The translations under genes and the position numbers were made by a program. A stretch of 64,000 nt of DNA, from positions 70,522-134,521 of the forward strand of contig NZ_JAACYI010000001.1 of the NCBI RefSeq assembly GCF_009996735.1. Reading direction: 5' to 3'. The stretch's first letter is position 1. Every line of letters begins with the position of its first letter. The notes under the pieces are model-generated. The model did no database searches. It saw only the letters and a program-made list of their open reading frames with translations, and had not been told where the DNA came from. This stretch comes from Cellulomonas sp. APG4. GTDB taxonomy: Bacteria > Actinomycetota > Actinomycetes > Actinomycetales > Cellulomonadaceae. Shown piece by piece: positions 151 to 7,135 of the stretch.

Positions 151-1137
151 ATGGTGGCTCCCCTGCCCTCGTCCGACACCCGTACCGAGGCCCCGTGGGG
201 CAGTACCGACTGGCCGGTGGCGGCGGCGATGCTCCCGTTCCCGGCGAGCCAGGACGCGTCCGCGCAGACCTGGCTCGCCCAGCTCGCCGAGGTGGCCTAC
301 GAGGGCTTCACCGAGGTCGACCTGACGGACTCCTGGGTGCGCGTGGGCGACCTCGCGCCGTCGCGGCTCACCGAGCTCGCCGACGTGCTGGGCCGTGCGG
401 GGCTGAGGGCCGAGGCGGTCTCAGCGATCCGGCGCAGCGTCATCGACCCCGAGCACGGCGCCGAGAACCTCGCCTACTCGCACCGCGTGATCGACGCCGC
501 GGCGAGCCTCGGCTGCTCGGTGGTGAGCGTGGGTCTGCACCGGCCACTGCTCCCGGAGCAGCAGCGGGTGCTGTGGTTCTGGACGGTCGACGGCCCGCGC
601 GACGACGACTCGACGGAGACCTGGCGGCTCGCGGTCGCCCGGCTGCGCGAGCTGGGTGAGCACGCGGCCGACGTCGGGCTCGACCTCTCGCTCGAGATGT
701 ACGAGGACACCCTGCTGGGCTCGTCGGCCTCGGCCGTGCGCCTGGTCGAGGACATCGCGCACCCGGCCGTGGGTCTCAACCCGGACCTGGGCAACCTGTT
801 CCGCCTGCACCGCGACGTCGAGGACTTCCAGCAGGCCGTCGCTGCGTGCCTGCCCGTCTCGAACTACTGGCACGTCAAGAGCTACCACCGCGACCACGAC
901 CCGCGCACCGGTGCCGTGACCGCGGTCCCGGCGCCCATGGCGCACGGGTCGGTCAACTACCGCCAGGCGATCCGCACCGCGCTGGAGGTCGGCTTCGCCG
1001 GTCCCTTCTGCGTCGAGCACTACGGCGGCGACGGACTGGCGGTGATGGCCGAGAACCACCGCTACCTGCGCCGGCTGCTCGCCGTCGCGACGGGTGAGGT
1101 CGCACGCGAGGCGAGCACACGCGGGGTGACCCCGTGA
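151..1137 (+). CDS. Sugar phosphate isomerase/epimerase, TIM barrel (EryH/LerI-like)
   Basis: A 328-aa protein of the xylose-isomerase-like TIM-barrel family. Family-type metal/acid residues appear as SLEMYED (about residue 180), NPDLGN (about 211) and the late VEHYGGDG (about 289). No signal peptide is seen. The ATG at 151 has an AGAGG ribosome site 5 nt upstream. In Brucella (EryH) and mycobacteria (LerI), members of this fold convert L-erythrulose-1-phosphate to D-erythrulose-4-phosphate. The neighbours here, a DhaK/L kinase and an RpiB-type isomerase, make that the best hypothesis. Its stop overlaps a 29-codon micro-ORF by 4 nt rather than the next gene directly. Confidence 0.8.
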   Translation: MVAPLPSSDTRTEAPWGSTDWPVAAAMLPFPASQDASAQTWLAQLAEVAYEGFTEVDLTDSWVRVGDLAPSRLTELADVLGRAGLRAEAVSAIRRSVIDPEHGAENLAYSHRVIDAAASLGCSVVSVGLHRPLLPEQQRVLWFWTVDGPRDDDSTETWRLAVARLRELGEHAADVGLDLSLEMYEDTLLGSSASAVRLVEDIAHPAVGLNPDLGNLFRLHRDVEDFQQAVAACLPVSNYWHVKSYHRDHDPRTGAVTAVPAPMAHGSVNYRQAIRTALEVGFAGPFCVEHYGGDGLAVMAENHRYLRRLLAVATGEVAREASTRGVTP

Positions 1138-1309
1138 CCGCCCGCACCGCCATCAGGGCGGCCGGGAACACCCCCGCTCGCACCACGACCACGACCACGA
1201 CCACGACAGAGGTGACCCCGTGATCGCCCGCACCACCGCCACGGCGGCCCTGAGCGCCCCCGCACGCACCACGACCACGACCACGACCACGACAGAGGTG
1301 ACCCGGTGA
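1134..1309 (+). repeat. Two tandem 86-bp junction copies forming chained poly-Thr micro-ORFs
   Basis: Between genes 1 and 2 lie two imperfect tandem units. Each holds a start GTGA(C/T)CGCCCGCACC, an Ala/Arg-rich stretch, a (CCACGA)n run and the end GAGGTGACCC(C/G)GTGA. Each unit is an open frame of exactly 29 codons (1134-1223 and 1220-1309). Both contain nine consecutive Thr codons and end E-V-T-P or E-V-T-R. Each frame overlaps its neighbours by 4 nt (GTGA), so gene 1, micro-ORF 1, micro-ORF 2 and gene 2 form one unbroken termination-reinitiation chain. The unit start resembles the start of gene 2 (GTGATCGCC) and the unit end resembles the end of gene 1 (GGGGTGACCCCGTGA). This suggests the junction itself was copied. 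Translation of these frames is not proven. Confidence 0.8.
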
Positions 1310-2193
1310 TCGCCGTCCTCGGCCTCGGCGCCATGGGACTGCCCATGGCCACCCACCTCGCGCGCACGTTCGAGGTCCGCGCGTTCGACGTCGCCGCGGC
1401 GCGGCTCGACCTCGCGGCCGAGGCCGGCGTCGCCGGGGCCCTCTCGCCGGTCGAGGCCGCACGCGGAGCCGACGTCGTGCTCGTGGGCGTCCGCGACGCC
1501 GCTCAGCTCGAGCAGGCGCTCTTCGCCGACGACGGCGCGGTGCACGGTCTCGCCGCGGGAGCGGTCGTGGTGCTGACGTCGACCGTCGGCGCCCCGGCCG
1601 CGCAGTCCGCGGCCGGCCGCCTCGCCGTCCACGGCGTCCACCTGGTCGACGCCCCGGTGAGCGGGGGTCCGGTGCGCGCCGGCACGGGCGACCTGCTGAT
1701 CATGGTGGGCGCGCCCGACGACGCGCTCGGGCTCGCCCGCCCGGTGCTCGAGGAGCTGTCCTCGACCCTCGCGGTCGTGGGACCGCGCGTGGGCGACGGC
1801 CAGGTGCTCAAGACCGTCAACCAGCTGCTGTGCGGGATCCACACCGCGGCGGCCGCCGAGGCGCTCGCCCTCGCGCACGCGCTGGGGCTCGACCTCGACG
1901 CGACCCTCGACGTGCTCGGTGCCGGCGCGGCCGCCTCGTTCATGCTCGCCGACCGCGGCCCACGCATCGCGGCGCGCCTCACGGGGCGCGAGCCCGAGCT
2001 GCGCTCACGGCTCGACGTGATCTCCAAGGACATGGGCATCGTCGCGCGGCTCGCGCGCGACGCCCACGTCGCGACCCCCGTCGCGTCCGCGGCCGAGCAG
2101 CTCTACCTGCTCGCCGAGGCGCGGGGGCTCGCCGCCGAGGACGACTCGGTGGTCGCGACGACCCTCACCCGCGCGAGCGAGGAGGCGCTGTGA
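1306..2193 (+). CDS. NAD(P)-dependent dehydrogenase, 3-hydroxyisobutyrate dehydrogenase family (LtnD-like)
   Basis: A 295-aa beta-hydroxyacid dehydrogenase. The N-terminal Rossmann motif is GLGAMGLPMA (residues 6-15). The substrate-binding DAPVSGGPVRAGTG lies near residues 119-132. The family catalytic lysine is in KTVNQLL near residue 170. The GTG start at 1306 overlaps the preceding micro-ORF by 4 nt. Family members oxidise 3-hydroxyisobutyrate, reduce tartronate semialdehyde, or oxidise L-threonate (LtnD). Next to erythrulose-type genes, a C4 sugar-acid or polyol substrate is likely, but the exact substrate cannot be read from the sequence. The 3' end is duplicated downstream as part of a copied junction. 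Confidence 0.85.
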   Translation: MIAVLGLGAMGLPMATHLARTFEVRAFDVAAARLDLAAEAGVAGALSPVEAARGADVVLVGVRDAAQLEQALFADDGAVHGLAAGAVVVLTSTVGAPAAQSAAGRLAVHGVHLVDAPVSGGPVRAGTGDLLIMVGAPDDALGLARPVLEELSSTLAVVGPRVGDGQVLKTVNQLLCGIHTAAAAEALALAHALGLDLDATLDVLGAGAAASFMLADRGPRIAARLTGREPELRSRLDVISKDMGIVARLARDAHVATPVASAAEQLYLLAEARGLAAEDDSVVATTLTRASEEAL

Positions 2194-2315
2194 CGCTGCT
2201 CTGGAACGACCCGGCCCAGTTCTCCGACGACGACTCGGCGGTCGCCACGACCCTCGCCTCCGAGAAGGACACGCGATGACCCTCCTCTGGAACGACCCGG
2301 CCCAGTTCTCCGACG
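2140..2315 (+). repeat. Tandem duplication of the dehydrogenase/kinase gene junction with a 29-codon micro-ORF
   Basis: The end of the dehydrogenase gene plus the first codons of the kinase gene occur twice in tandem, from GACGACTCGG at 2140 and again at 2229. The first copy of the kinase start, beginning GTG at 2190, encodes [13 protein letters not shown] just as the real gene does. It then runs into a second copy of the dehydrogenase tail (DSAVATTL) and stops at 2279. The resulting 29-codon frame (2190-2279) overlaps the dehydrogenase stop and the kinase ATG by 4 nt each. The starts are offset by 86 bp and the tails by 89 bp, so one codon was lost in the second tail. Confidence 0.9.
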
Positions 2316-4129
2316 ACGCCCTCCGCGGCTTCGCCGACGCCCACGCCGACCAGGTGCGGCTCGTGCCCGGTGGCGTGGTCCGGGCGCAGCCGACGCCCGC
2401 CGGCAAGGTCGCCGTCGTCGTCGGTGGCGGCTCGGGCCACTACCCCGCGTTCTGCGGACTGGTCGGCGAGGGCTTCGCGGACGGCGCCGTCGTCGGGAAC
2501 GTGTTCACGTCGCCGTCGGCCGACGACGCGGCCTCGGTGGGGCGCGAGGCCGACGGCGGCGCCGGGGTCGTGATGCTCACGGGCAACTACGCGGGTGACG
2601 TCATGAACTTCACGCTCGCCTGCCGCCGCCTCGCGGCCGAGGGGATCGACGCGCGCTACGTGCTCGTGACCGACGACGTCGCGAGCGCCCCCGCCGGGCA
2701 GGAGTCCGAGCGCCGCGGCATCGCGGGCGACCTCACCGTCTTCAAGGTCGCCGCGGCGGCGGCGGAGGCCGGGGCGAGCCTCGACGAGGTCGAGCGCCTC
2801 GCGCGTCACGCGAACGACCGCACGCGCACGCTGGGCGTCGCGTTCGACGGCTGCACCCTCCCGGGCGCCGACGCACCGCTGTTCGGGGTCCCCGAGGGCC
2901 GCATGGGCATCGGGGTCGGCATCCACGGCGAGCCGGGCATCGGCGAGACCGACATGCCGACCGCGCACGAGCTCGCGGTCACCCTCGTGGACCAGGTCCT
3001 CGCCGAGGCGCCCGCGCCCGGGCCGAGCCGGGCCGCCGTCGTGCTCAACGGCCTGGGCCGCACCAAGTACGAGGAGCTCTTCGTGGTGTGGGCGTCGGTG
3101 GCGGAGCGGCTTCGCGCGGCCGACGTCACCGTCGTGTCTCCCGACGTGGGCGAGCTCGTGACGAGCCTCGACATGGCGGGCTGCTCACTCACCCTCATGT
3201 GGCTCGACGACGAGCTCGAGCGCCTGTGGCTCGCGCCGTCCGACGCGCCCGCCTATCGCAAGGGCAGGTTCGACGCACGGGCGGCCGCGCGCCCGAGCAC
3301 GCGGGCCGGCACCGCGCCGCACGAGGGCACGTCCGACCACAGCAGCGCGCCCGGCCACAGCACGTCTCACCACGGCACGTCTCACCACAGCACCGAGCTC
3401 CCTGCAGGCAGCGGCCCGCCGACGCGCGTCGCGACCGACCCCGACACGACGTCGGCCCCGGCTGGCCCCGCCGTCCGCGCTGCCGCGGCGGGACTGCTCA
3501 CGCAGCTCGCGCACGCGCGCGACGCGGTCCGTGCCGAGGAGGCGCACCTCGGCCGGCTCGACGCCGTCGCCGGGGACGGCGACCACGGCCGCGGGATGGT
3601 CCGCGGGCTCACCGCGGCCCATGAAGCCGCCGCCTCGGCACTCGAGGCGGGCGGCGGGCCGGGCGACCTCCTCACGGCGGCCGGGCGGGCCTGGGCCGCC
3701 CGCGCCGGCGGGACCTCGGGAGTCCTGTGGGGTGCGATGCTCGAGGCTGCCGGCGCCGTGCTGCCCACCGACGACTCCGCCTGGGCCGCGGGGCCCTCGA
3801 CCGATGCGGTCACCGAGGCCGTCGGCGCAGCCCTCGCCGCGGCTCGTGAGCTGGGCCGCGCCGACGTCGGCGACAAGACCTTCCTCGACGCGCTGGTCCC
3901 CTTCCACACGGCGCTCCGCGAGGGGAGCGACGACGACCTGGTGTCGACCTGGGGCCGTGCCACCGACGCGGCGCAGGACGCCGCGCAGGCGACCGCCGAC
4001 CTCCGCCCGCGCGTGGGCCGCGCCCGCCCGCTCGCCGAGCAGAGCGTCGGCACCCCGGACCCGGGCGCGGTCTCGTTCGCGCTCGTCGTCCGCACGGTGT
4101 CGTCGGCGTCTCCCGAGGAGACGCCGTGA
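2276..4129 (+). CDS. Fused dihydroxyacetone kinase-family protein (DhaK-DhaL), probable erythrulose kinase
   Basis: A 617-aa single-chain, ATP-dependent DAK-family kinase. The DhaK domain spans about residues 1-330, with [10 protein letters not shown] (about 47-56) and the substrate-binding histidine His217 in GIHGEPG. The DhaL domain starts near residue 405 and carries GDGDHG near 432, where aspartates bind Mg-ATP. The linker (about 340-375) is unusual, with repeated [13 protein letters not shown]-type His/Ser/Thr residues. DAK-type kinases phosphorylate dihydroxyacetone or, in mycobacterial tetritol pathways (LerK/DerK), erythrulose. Flanking TIM-barrel and RpiB-type isomerases favour erythrulose. 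The ATG at 2276 overlaps the preceding micro-ORF by 4 nt and is preceded by GAGAAGGA. Confidence 0.88.
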
Positions 4130-4185
4130 GCCGGCGGGCCGCCGTCCGCGCCGCGCACGTGACTTCATCGGAGGAGACGTCATGA
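4126..4185 (+). other. 19-codon micro-ORF bridging kinase and isomerase genes
   Basis: Starting at the GTGA that overlaps the kinase stop, an open frame of 19 codons runs to a TGA that overlaps the ATG of the next gene (ATGA). Its last residues, TSSEETS, resemble the kinase C-terminus SSASPEETP. The corresponding DNA (gaggagacg) is repeated 56 bp apart, so it looks like an older, more diverged junction copy. The same GGAGGAG stretch also serves as the ribosome site of the downstream gene. Translation is not shown. Confidence 0.5.
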
Positions 4186-4679
4186 CCAGCCCGACCACCG
4201 AGCAGCAGCCCGAGCCGCTGCGCGTCGCCGTCGCCTGCGACGACGCGGGCCTGCGCTACAAGGCCGCACTGCGTGCCGACCTCGAGGCGGACCCGCGCGT
4301 CGCCGAGGTGATCGACGTGGGCGTGCCCGACGACGGCCCCGAGCGCGGCACCGCGTACCCGCACGTCGCGGTGACCGCGGCGCGGCTCGTCGCGGAGGGC
4401 CGCGTGGACCGTGCCCTGCTCGTGTGCGGCACGGGCCTGGGCGTCGCCATCTCGGCCAACAAGGTGCCCGGGGTCCGCGCCGTCACCGCGCACGACAGCT
4501 ACTCGGTCGAGCGCTCGGTCCTGTCCAACGACGCCCAGGTGCTGTGCGTCGGGGAACGGGTCATCGGTCTCGAGCTCGCGCGACGCCTGGTGCGCGAGTG
4601 GGTCGGCCACCGCTTCGACCCGACGTCCGCCTCGGCCGAGAAGGTCGACGCCATCCGCGGCTACGACCAGCCGTCCTGA
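4182..4679 (+). CDS. RpiB-family sugar phosphate isomerase (EryI/DerI-like D-erythrulose-4-phosphate isomerase)
   Basis: A 165-aa member of the RpiB/LacAB family. It shows the N-terminal VAVACDDAG, the conserved [19 protein letters not shown] loop carrying the family's base-type cysteine, and a C-terminal VGHRFDP segment. The ATG at 4182 has GGAGGAG 7 nt upstream. Ordinary RpiB interconverts ribose- and ribulose-5-phosphate, but operon-linked paralogs EryI and DerI convert D-erythrulose-4-phosphate to D-erythrose-4-phosphate. Beside a DAK-type kinase and a TIM-barrel isomerase this would be the last step into the pentose phosphate pathway. It is the last gene of the operon; the next gene is convergent. 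Confidence 0.87.
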
Positions 4680-4774: not shown

Positions 4775-5311
4775 TCAGCCCAGCCGGGCGACGACCGCCT
4801 CGCCGCCGTCCCAGGTCGCGACCAGTGCCGGACCCGTCCCTCGTGCGTCGTCCAGGTCGCGGACGACCCACATGCCTCGCTCGGCCGGGTCACCACCCGG
4901 GTCCCCTGCCAGGGCGGCCAGCCGCACCGTCGGCTCGCGCATCCCGACCTTGCGCCCGTCCTCCCACAGCTCGAGGGCTGCCTGCTCCTGCTCGCCCGCG
5001 ATCGCGCGACGGAAGCACGCGACCGCGACCGGGTCGCCGGCGCCGTCGTACACCCAGCGCCGGCCCAGCTCGGAGTGCTCCATCGTCGCGATCAGGCGCG
5101 CCCCGGCCACGTCGAGAGGGGCGCCGCGGTAGGTGAGCACCACGTGACGCAGCTGCTCACCGTGCCGGACCACGAACGCCTCGACGCCGACCTCGCCCGC
5201 CGGGTCGTCGAAGCGGTAGGAGCCGAGAACCTCGACGGGGCCGCCGAGCTCCGCCTCGAGCAGCTCGGGCTTGGTCGGCCGGATCGTCGCGCCGGAGTGC
5301 AGGATCGCCAT
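4775..5311 (-). CDS. Maltokinase N-terminal cap-like (CG0192-type) protein
   Basis: A 178-aa protein beginning MAILHSGATIRPTKPELLEAEL. This resembles the N-terminal cap domain of actinobacterial maltokinases (consensus M-A-x-I-H-x-A-x-L-x-P-T-K-x-E-L-L), without any kinase domain following. Such short proteins are often labelled '1,4-alpha-glucan branching protein', but a catalytic role is not established. The body includes LTYRGAPLDVAGARLIATMEHSELGRRWVYDGAGDPV in outline; no signal peptide or membrane segment is seen. I chose ATG at 5311 because codons upstream of it translate only the adjacent 18-bp repeat array. A TAGGGT box 8 nt upstream could allow a leaderless start. Confidence 0.65.
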   Translation of the reverse strand: MAILHSGATIRPTKPELLEAELGGPVEVLGSYRFDDPAGEVGVEAFVVRHGEQLRHVVLTYRGAPLDVAGARLIATMEHSELGRRWVYDGAGDPVAVACFRRAIAGEQEQAALELWEDGRKVGMREPTVRLAALAGDPGGDPAERGMWVVRDLDDARGTGPALVATWDGGEAVVARLG

Positions 5312-5325: not shown

Positions 5326-5328
5326 CCG

Positions 5329-5457
5329 ACGCTCGGTGCGAACCCGACGCTCGGTGCGAACCCAACGCTCGGTGCGAACCCAACGCTCAGTGCGAACCCG
5401 ACCCTCGGTGCGAACCCAACGCTCAGTGCGAACGCCGCGCTCGGTGCGAACCACCCC
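5329..5457. repeat. 18-bp tandem array, seven copies
   Basis: The unit ACGCTCGGTGCGAACCCA occurs seven times, with CTCGGTGCG (or CTCAGTGCG) starting at 5332, 5350, 5368, 5386, 5404, 5422 and 5440, an exact 18-bp period. Variation is mostly at the first, eighth and last positions. The array lies between two minus-strand genes, directly upstream of the cap-like gene. It has no spacer sequences, so it is not a CRISPR. An exact 18-bp period is compatible with coding repeats, or with fewer than two full helical turns. Confidence 0.9.
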
Positions 5458-5482: not shown

Positions 5483-5947
5483 TCAGAGCTCCTCGGCCTG
5501 CGAGAGGTCCTCGACCCCCGTGGGGTCCCAGCCGGTCATCGTGACGAGCACCCCGTACGGCTCGCACACCGGCAGCCGCCCCTCGGCGAAGTGGATCGAC
5601 CACGTCGCGGCCTCGCCGAACGTGAAGGCGGGCTCGGTCGCGAGCGGACGTTCGTCGCGGTCGGCCGCGGCGACGTCGTCGGCGGTCCAGCCGAACCGCT
5701 CGGGATCTGCCGCGACCTCGGCCGCGAGGTGGGCCTCGGCGACGTCGAGCAGCGCCTCGCCCCGCGTGAGGAGCCGCGCGGCGCGGTGCACGAGCTGCGC
5801 GTCGGGCGGGCCGTCGTCCGGGGTCAGCAGGTGCGCGACGAGCATGCCGTCGGGGCAGGTGCGGTGCTCGCAGGGGACGAGCACGCTGCGGTGCCAGGTG
5901 CCGTCGGGTACGGGTTCGGCCTCGTCGGGCCACTCGGGAGGGATCAT
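5483..5947 (-). CDS. Hypothetical protein
   Basis: A 154-aa acidic protein starting MIPPEWPDEAEPVPDGTWHRS. It has no transmembrane segment or signal peptide and contains three cysteines (CEHRTC and a later PVCEPYG). I do not recognise the family. The coding pattern is typical of its neighbours. The ATG at 5947 is preceded by AAGGAGTGTCC, a good ribosome site. That site and the first eight or nine codons occur three times in tandem immediately upstream, which makes the 5' end of this gene unusual. It may be cotranscribed with the cap-like gene downstream, although the 18-bp array separates them. Confidence 0.7.
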   Translation of the reverse strand: MIPPEWPDEAEPVPDGTWHRSVLVPCEHRTCPDGMLVAHLLTPDDGPPDAQLVHRAARLLTRGEALLDVAEAHLAAEVAADPERFGWTADDVAAADRDERPLATEPAFTFGEAATWSIHFAEGRLPVCEPYGVLVTMTGWDPTGVEDLSQAEEL

Positions 5948-6130
5948 GGACACTCCTTCACCGACGGTCCGGAACGGGCCATCACCACCGTCTCGTCGGG
6001 CCACTCGGGAGGGATCATGGACACTCCTTCACCGACGGTCCGGAACGGGCCACCACCGTCTCGCCTGGCCACTCGGGAGGGATCATGGACACTCCTTCAC
6101 CGACGGTCCGGAACGGGCCACCACCACCGT
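5919..6130 (-). repeat. Triplicated translation start region forming two ATGA-coupled micro-ORFs
   Basis: The ribosome site and first codons of the hypothetical gene (M-I-P-P-E-W-P) occur three times in tandem, with ATGs at 5947, 6018 and 6086. The steps are 71 and 68 bp. Each upstream ATG opens a short frame: 6018-5944 with 24 codons and 6086-6015 with 23. Each reads MIPPEWP, then ETVV and ARSGPSVKECP, and stops in a TGA that overlaps the next ATG (ATGA). The outermost copy is preceded by the same ARSGPSVKECP tail, so a leader frame from a GTG near 6135 may exist. Copies are more than 90 percent identical, so the event is recent. Confidence 0.9.
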
Positions 6131-6193: not shown

Positions 6194-7135
6194 GTGAAGA
6201 TCCTGCTGCCGACGAGCATCCCGCTCGACCCGGACCTGCCCGACGGCGTCGAGGCGGTGCGGTACGACAACCGCGAACCCGTGCCGGACGCCCACCGCGA
6301 CGCCGAGGCGCTCGTCGTCTGGGGCAACCGAGGTCCGGAGCTCGCCGACGCGGCCGCGCGGCTCACGCGCCTGCGCTGGGTCCAGACCCTCGCGGCCGGC
6401 CCGGACCAGGTGCTCGGTGCGGGCTTCGCGCCCGACGTCGTGGTGACCTCGGGTCGCTCGTTGCACGACCTGCCGGTGACCGAGCACACGCTCGCGCTGG
6501 TGCTCGCGGCCGCGCGCCGGCTGCACGTGCTCGGGCGGGCGCAGGCCGAGCACCGCTGGGTGCGCGAGCTCGGCGGGATGCAGCCGCTGGACGAGGTGGG
6601 CGCGTTCCGCACGCTGCGGGACGCGCGCGTGCTCGTGTGGGGCTTCGGCTCGATCGCCGCGACCCTCGCGCCTCTCCTCGCCGCGCTGGGAGCACACGTC
6701 ACCGGCGTCGCGCGCACCGCGGGCGACCGGCACGGGTTCCCCGTGATCACCGAGGACGACCTCCCGGCGCACCTGCCCTCGACCGACCTGCTCGTGATGA
6801 TCCTGCCCGCGTCGGCGAGCACGCACCACGCGCTGTCCCGCGAACGTCTCGCGCTGCTGCCGCCACACGCCTGGGTCGTCAACGTGGGCCGCGGGGCGAC
6901 GCTCGACACCGAGTCGCTGCTCGAGGCCCTGCGCGGCGGGCGCCTGGGCGGCGCGGCGCTCGACGTGTTCGAGACGGAGCCGTTGCCCGCCGACTCGCCG
7001 TTGTGGGACGAGCCCGACGTGATCGTCTCGCCGCACGCCGCGGGTGGCCGACCGCTGGGCGCCGACGCCCTGATCGCGGACAACGTGAGGGCGCTCCTCG
7101 AGGGCCGCGAGCTCCGCAACGTCGTCGAGCGCTGA
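6194..7135 (+). CDS. D-2-hydroxyacid dehydrogenase (NAD-binding)
   Basis: A 313-aa protein with a C-terminal NAD-binding domain of the 2-hydroxyacid dehydrogenase family. The glycine motif is degenerate: VLVWGFGSIAATLAPLLAALGA (about residues 147-168), with GFGSIA in place of GxGxxG. The VNVGRGATLDTESLLEAL loop and the late SPHAAGG, with the catalytic His, are intact. The conserved Arg is in NVGRG. The GTG at 6194 has GAGGA 5 nt upstream. The physiological substrate is unknown; glyoxylate/hydroxypyruvate or phosphoglycerate-like acids are typical. It stands alone and is convergent with the GH3 gene. Confidence 0.85.
   Translation: MKILLPTSIPLDPDLPDGVEAVRYDNREPVPDAHRDAEALVVWGNRGPELADAAARLTRLRWVQTLAAGPDQVLGAGFAPDVVVTSGRSLHDLPVTEHTLALVLAAARRLHVLGRAQAEHRWVRELGGMQPLDEVGAFRTLRDARVLVWGFGSIAATLAPLLAALGAHVTGVARTAGDRHGFPVITEDDLPAHLPSTDLLVMILPASASTHHALSRERLALLPPHAWVVNVGRGATLDTESLLEALRGGRLGGAALDVFETEPLPADSPLWDEPDVIVSPHAAGGRPLGADALIADNVRALLEGRELRNVVER

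Follow-up and report, generated by a model that had tools for sequence, protein, structure and literature searches.

Tandem duplication of stop-start junctions as the probable origin of a micro-ORF chain in a Cellulomonas operon

Near the start of a 64,000-nucleotide stretch of the Cellulomonas sp. APG4 genome (contig NZ_JAACYI010000001.1, positions 70,522 to 134,521; the whole stretch is hereafter the window, and positions are counted from its first letter) lies an operon in which four genes alternate with four very short open reading frames (micro-ORFs) of 29, 29, 29 and 19 codons. The frames are linked by seven exact 4-nt overlaps of the form NTGA, in which the stop of one frame is interlocked with the start of the next:

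151..1137 (+): gene 1, a xylose-isomerase-like TIM barrel (AP_endonuc_2, PF01261) of the sugar-phosphate epimerase/isomerase type, by profile match
1134..1223 (+): micro-ORF 1, 29 codons, starting like gene 2 of relatives and ending like the gene 1 C-terminus (..VTP)
1220..1309 (+): micro-ORF 2, 29 codons, a second copy of the 86-bp unit, ending ..EVTR
1306..2193 (+): gene 2, a member of the 3-hydroxyacid dehydrogenase family; the best model, L-threonate dehydrogenase, is matched below its cut-off
2190..2279 (+): micro-ORF 3, 29 codons, a hybrid of the gene 3 start and the gene 2 end
2276..4129 (+): gene 3, a fused dihydroxyacetone-kinase family protein (Dak1 + Dak2), by profile match
4126..4185 (+): micro-ORF 4, 19 codons, ending ..SSEETS
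4182..4679 (+): gene 4, an RpiB/LacAB-type isomerase (TIGR02133, above cut-off)

All four large frames are supported as genes by profile matches, and the set looks like one for breaking down a compound of four or five carbons (a sugar, an alcohol or an acid). A preliminary description of this DNA had reported the same eight frames and seven overlaps, and we find them exactly as it placed them. The same-strand 4-nt overlap of stop and start that serves as a criterion for termination-reinitiation coupling is present at all seven of these junctions.

Each of the three gene-to-gene junctions is spanned by a tandem repeat, or by what is probably the remnant of one:

1125..1314 (+): tandem repeat across the gene 1/gene 2 junction, period 86, 2.2 copies, 89% matches (Tandem Repeats Finder)
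2135..2318 (+): tandem repeat across the gene 2/gene 3 junction, period 86, 2.1 copies, 84% matches (Tandem Repeats Finder), with offsets of 86 and 89
4085..4185 (+): probable eroded tandem duplication across the gene 3/gene 4 junction, offset 56, with 13 of 15 positions identical in the best segment

The second of these repeats falls into a right part (2180-2232 against 2266-2318; 53 nt, 89%, offset 86) and a left part (2135-2176 against 2224-2265; 42 nt, 83%, offset 89), and the two offsets imply a 3-nt indel that leaves the phase unchanged. When the self-match of each junction was compared with 2000 shuffles in which the NTGA letters were held fixed, the observed value was attained by none of the 2000 at the gene 1/gene 2 junction, likewise by none at the gene 2/gene 3 junction, and by two at the gene 3/gene 4 junction (offset 56; 0 of 300 in a separate run). 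On these figures duplication is secure at junctions 1 and 2 and likely at junction 3. Divergence between the copies at the first two junctions amounts to about 10-20%; they are therefore no assembly artefact, and the events are unlikely to be very recent.

The composition of the micro-ORFs points the same way. The first 12 bases of micro-ORF 1 are identical to the start of gene 2 in Cellulomonas marina (locus L034). VTP and VTR, with which the first two micro-ORFs end, resemble the end of gene 1 in their own genome and in the related locus L035. The first 14 residues of micro-ORF 3 are those with which the gene 3 kinase starts, and its C-terminal half copies the end of the dehydrogenase encoded by gene 2. 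At junction 3 the offset of 56 brings the terminal bases of gene 3 into register with those of micro-ORF 4; both copies resemble the gene 3 ends of the relatives L037 and L039, and micro-ORF 4 ends EETS, as does gene 3 of L039. To judge from these resemblances each micro-ORF is a duplicate of its junction, beginning like the downstream gene and ending like the upstream one, with the third junction the weaker case and probably an eroded one.

The state of the same junctions in relatives was established from junctions counted only if they differed in the 120 bases around the stop, a start at -4 being taken whenever it was one of several possible. For gene 1/gene 2 there were 26 distinct junctions, 25 of which could be parsed, with an in-frame start at -4 in 22, at -1 in one and at +2 in two. 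An in-frame start at -4 is found in all 22 gene 2/gene 3 junctions and in 43 of the 64 gene 3/gene 4 junctions. Given these direct overlaps in relatives, junctions 1 and 2 probably started out with the tight overlap and acquired their spacers later; we are less sure of an ancestral tight overlap at junction 3. The preliminary description had taken the micro-ORFs to occupy what would otherwise be intergenic gaps. That view is not borne out, as the frames are tandem duplicates of junctions, and in the relatives compared gene 1 and gene 2 overlap or lie at most 2 nt apart while gene 2 and gene 3 overlap. An explanation by selection for filling gaps was rejected on the same ground, since these relatives have nothing to fill at the first two junctions.

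The unit lengths follow a simple arithmetic rule. After duplication of a unit of length L across an NTGA junction, the first start reaches the second TGA in frame only if 3 divides L+1, hence only for L equal to 2 mod 3. In the operon the units measure 86 bp (amplified to give two micro-ORFs), 86/89 bp and 56 bp, every one of them 2 mod 3. With an assumed anti-Shine-Dalgarno tail, the Shine-Dalgarno sequences of the seven overlapping starts pair at energies between -6.3 and -12.3 kcal/mol, gene 3 having the weakest pairing, as against -7.3 at the start of gene 1. All seven overlapping starts have their Shine-Dalgarno within the upstream frame, a common but not universal criterion for coupling.

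We therefore envisage, on the strength of sequence comparisons, an ancestral operon whose neighboring genes overlapped directly by a 4-nt NTGA, and in which short tandem duplications would have copied the end of gene A, the NTGA and the start of gene B at each junction. Such a junction-spanning duplication would keep both genes intact while inserting a hybrid micro-ORF with a B-like start and an A-like end; with a unit of 2 mod 3 this micro-ORF would begin on the stop of A and end on the start of B. As the Shine-Dalgarno would be copied along with the unit, termination-reinitiation from A to B could continue through the micro-ORF. An in-phase 86-bp spacer would thus replace one hand-over with two or three, whereas an out-of-phase one should uncouple the genes, because in published two-reporter work, which also indicates that the final 15 nt of the upstream gene are enough for coupling, hardly any coupling was left once the genes stood 22-38 nt apart (PMC10666635). 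We hold it to be quite probable that duplicated junctions with coupling-preserving unit lengths explain the chain; with this we infer that the coupling was selected and that the micro-ORFs are translated, their peptides probably being without function. The duplications were likely tolerated and retained because coupling survives them. As to the earlier proposal that the chain keeps ribosomes loaded across the junctions, the unbroken stop-restart chain is real, and the distances reported in PMC10666635 make ribosome loading plausible.

Just outside the operon the window holds a further array with the same arithmetic:

5921..6130 (-): leader array, three copies of a Shine-Dalgarno, ATG and first codons, before the gene 5947-5483(-)

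Its leader micro-ORFs (6086-6015 and 6018-5944) are chained by ATGA overlaps, and its spacings of 68 and 71 bp are again 2 mod 3 and again differ by 3. It duplicates the gene's own Shine-Dalgarno and start, not a gene junction, and forms a leader array between divergent genes.

To place the operon in its genomic context, we surveyed 2.05 Mb of the same genome with a mechanical gene caller (1838 genes, 1165 same-strand pairs), which gave 279 same-strand pairs with a -4 overlap and 628 same-strand gaps of 10-300 nt. Micro-ORF chains number 26, against a mean of 17.1 (standard deviation 3.6) when the phase of the gaps is randomized in 500 shuffles, and 8 of these attain 26; an earlier, smaller sample had given 23 chains against 13.3 (0 of 200 shuffles), so that the excess shrank as the data grew. 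A 0.8-Mb family sample, from four genomes of the same genus (G011, G009, G006, G017) and one of another genus (G056), yields 13 chains against 7.0 expected (2 of 500 shuffles), and its gaps with NTGA at both ends number 11/6/8 in phases 2/0/1. No excess is seen among 80 named loci, mostly from other actinobacteria, eight of which (L034-L041) group with the studied operon: here 3 chains stand against 5.3 expected (470 of 500 shuffles), with phases 2/0/1 of 4/11/5. The shuffle test suggested in the preliminary description thus speaks against spacer-filling chains as a general system, the excess being at most 1.5-1.9 fold in the family and absent from the 80 loci, and we rejected a genome-wide system in view of this weak excess. 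One chain on its own is nothing very remarkable. Three in a row within an operon are out of the ordinary, and tandem duplication accounts for them.

These counts also bear on whether the micro-ORFs could be chance frames in ordinary gaps of a genome of 73-75% GC. Three of the 26 chains are those of the studied operon, and chains occur at 23 of the remaining 625 gaps, mostly with non-coding composition: the codon score is below zero in 21 of 23 micro-ORFs outside the window (in a 1.65-Mb sample of this genome) and also in micro-ORF 4, and above zero in micro-ORFs 1-3. Against chance stand the repeats at junctions 1 and 2 and the relatives that have no such gaps there. Chance frames are refuted for junctions 1 and 2 and could still account for junction 3; as an explanation of the whole chain we deem them highly improbable.

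Duplications themselves are rare. A junction self-match score of at least 10, in any phase, was reached by 5 of the 628 gaps, all of them in-phase chains; elsewhere such scores occur at 2 of 249 and 1 of 497 gaps, none of them chains, and with 64-69% identity or a length of only 13 nt. This genome has six start-spanning duplications in which neither copy has lost its NTGA, and five of them are in phase 2; another six, whose copies both keep the start codon without a following A, fall two into each phase. These figures agree with selection on phase, although the set is small, was assembled post hoc and may be short of phase 0 cases, in which a gene caller would be apt to assign the gene the upstream start. 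A strong start-spanning duplication in Arthrobacter alkaliphilus (L112) was dropped from the phase argument, as it sits among tandem lipoprotein-like genes; at 1590-2371 of that locus a truncated lipoprotein-like copy and the gene after it are joined through a GTGA overlap, at a spacing of 179 bp (2 mod 3).

Several observations weigh against a role for selected coupling. Three in-phase events in one operon would come about by chance with a probability of 1/27, so that selection on duplication phase is suggested and not proved. Genes 2-4 each have their own Shine-Dalgarno, and coupling may be unneeded; moreover, the 21 remaining gene 3/gene 4 junctions of relatives lack the -4 overlap and have gaps of 3 to 361 nt instead. 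Of 61 gaps in the 2.05-Mb sample with NTGA at both ends, 26, 23 and 12 are in phases 2, 0 and 1, phase 2 being hardly ahead of phase 0. Three of the five junction duplications belong to the studied operon itself, and the other two (L133 and L171) rest on 19 and 24 nt. At L209 a weak junction match with a unit of 66 (22 nt, 73%; reached by 5 of 300 shuffles) fails to keep the phase and forms no chain, L200 is the one start-spanning NTGA duplication out of phase, and the ACCACG run within the 86-bp unit has no visible counterpart in either flanking gene.

Much of this would also fit purely neutral duplications in a duplication-prone stretch, the phases being a matter of luck and coupling irrelevant as every gene has its own ribosome-binding site. 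This account shares its origin with selected coupling and differs only on whether coupling was selected, so that the confidences placed in the two overlap; taken by itself we regard it as possible but doubtful. In its favor, 4 of the roughly 13-14 tandem arrays in the window scoring at least 80 fall in the first 6.1 kb, and the weak genome-wide excess of chains likewise suits it. In a 1.25-Mb sample of this genome the density of tandem arrays is not unusual (Tandem Repeats Finder). Codon changes between micro-ORFs 1 and 2 comprise 8 non-synonymous and 1 synonymous; the peptides therefore show no constraint, as neutrality would have it. It is opposed by the preservation of phase by every unit and by the single internal indel, by the in-phase spacing of the adjoining leader array, and by the retention of the -4 start in every gene 2/gene 3 junction of the relatives.

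The duplicated-junction reading has also to be set against a function in the peptides or codons themselves. A run of nine threonine codons, present in both micro-ORF 1 and micro-ORF 2, could slow ribosomes and so meter gene 2. Yet this run is a hexanucleotide run, ACCACG, and 211 of 220 family genomes have matches that, going by query position, fall mostly on runs of this kind; micro-ORFs 3 and 4 lack it, and the rest of the peptide drifts. A regulatory role of this kind thus appears very unlikely.

The closest parallel in the literature is provided by the mycobacterial interspersed repetitive units (MIRUs). These appear to be mobile and insert at the start codons of genes in such a way that the ORF they bring is coupled at -4 nt, likely with little consequence for the gene concerned (PMC12548453, a 2025 review). 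Units of 77 and 53 bp are on record, with tandem copies between senX3 and regX3 (PMC4213456). Like them, the operon has short intergenic units whose ORF is coupled at -4 nt to the gene that follows (PMC12548453), and 77 and 53 are, as we note here, 2 mod 3 like its own unit lengths. MIRUs are described, however, as apparently mobile and present in many mycobacteria, whereas in the operon the unit changes with the junction and derives from the genes on either side.

Had a MIRU-like mobile element inserted itself at every junction, the result would be the identical -4 coupled architecture (PMC12548453), with lengths likewise of 2 mod 3 (PMC4213456). The unit at junction 2, and probably that at junction 3, is nevertheless built from the flanking genes' own ends, and self-comparison of 900-2500 sorts the junction 1 and junction 2 units into different repeat families. 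A dispersed homologous family of the MIRU kind is not seen: junction 2, and probably 3, are locally derived, and the junction 1 unit, with three matches in its own genome (G000), shows only the self match among the matches listed. The units were also rejected as dispersed repeats in general, the matches listed falling mostly on ACCACG runs. Of the explanations considered, insertion strikes us as the least credible, and scarcely credible at all.

Other known systems share parts of the arrangement. Termination-reinitiation at 4-nt overlaps (PMC6728339, Nat Commun 2019; PMC10666635, Front Microbiol 2023) employs the same NTGA with a Shine-Dalgarno in the upstream frame, but the partners there are full genes, whereas the studied operon interposes micro-ORFs. 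Short upstream ORFs that deliver ribosomes (PMC12548453) resemble the micro-ORFs in that a short frame brings the ribosome to the next start, but those described are 5' leaders or engineered, whereas the micro-ORFs of the operon are internal and apparently born of duplication. The 5921-6130 array is nearer to this upstream-leader type than are the operon micro-ORFs. The engineered variety goes by the name of 'bicistronic design'. The preliminary description knew of no account of stop-restart chains through short frames; MIRU ORFs coupled at -4 nt to the gene at the insertion site already provide a precedent (PMC12548453). For tandem duplication of stop-start junctions no description was found among the titles listed in literature searches made largely outside subscription journals. 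What appears to be new is a MIRU-like architecture arising by local duplication from flanking genes at two, and probably three, consecutive junctions.

More speculatively, in-phase junction duplication might be a general route to operon spacers and new small genes, in which selection on the hand-over would filter units to 2 mod 3, chains would be the fossil record of this filter, and MIRUs would be a mobile version meeting the same constraint; we offer this generalization tentatively and do not expect it to hold. Were it true, one could gauge natural selection on translational coupling without bench work, simply by counting unit lengths modulo 3 where genes meet at NTGA, and operon micro-ORFs would have an origin. 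It also advises caution against taking such micro-ORFs for designed regulators.

A few features of the surroundings complete the description. Within gene 3 the linker between Dak1 and Dak2 (window 3290-3420) is rich in His, Ser and Thr and holds a 15-bp repeat at 3355-3393. The divergent upstream neighbor of the operon is a GntR/FCD-like regulator, judged by eye from its sequence. Downstream, at window 5326-5452, an 18-bp unit occurs about seven times directly upstream of the minus-strand gene 4775-5311, and the plus-strand frame at window 6194-7135 is D-2-hydroxyacid dehydrogenase-like, likewise judged by eye.

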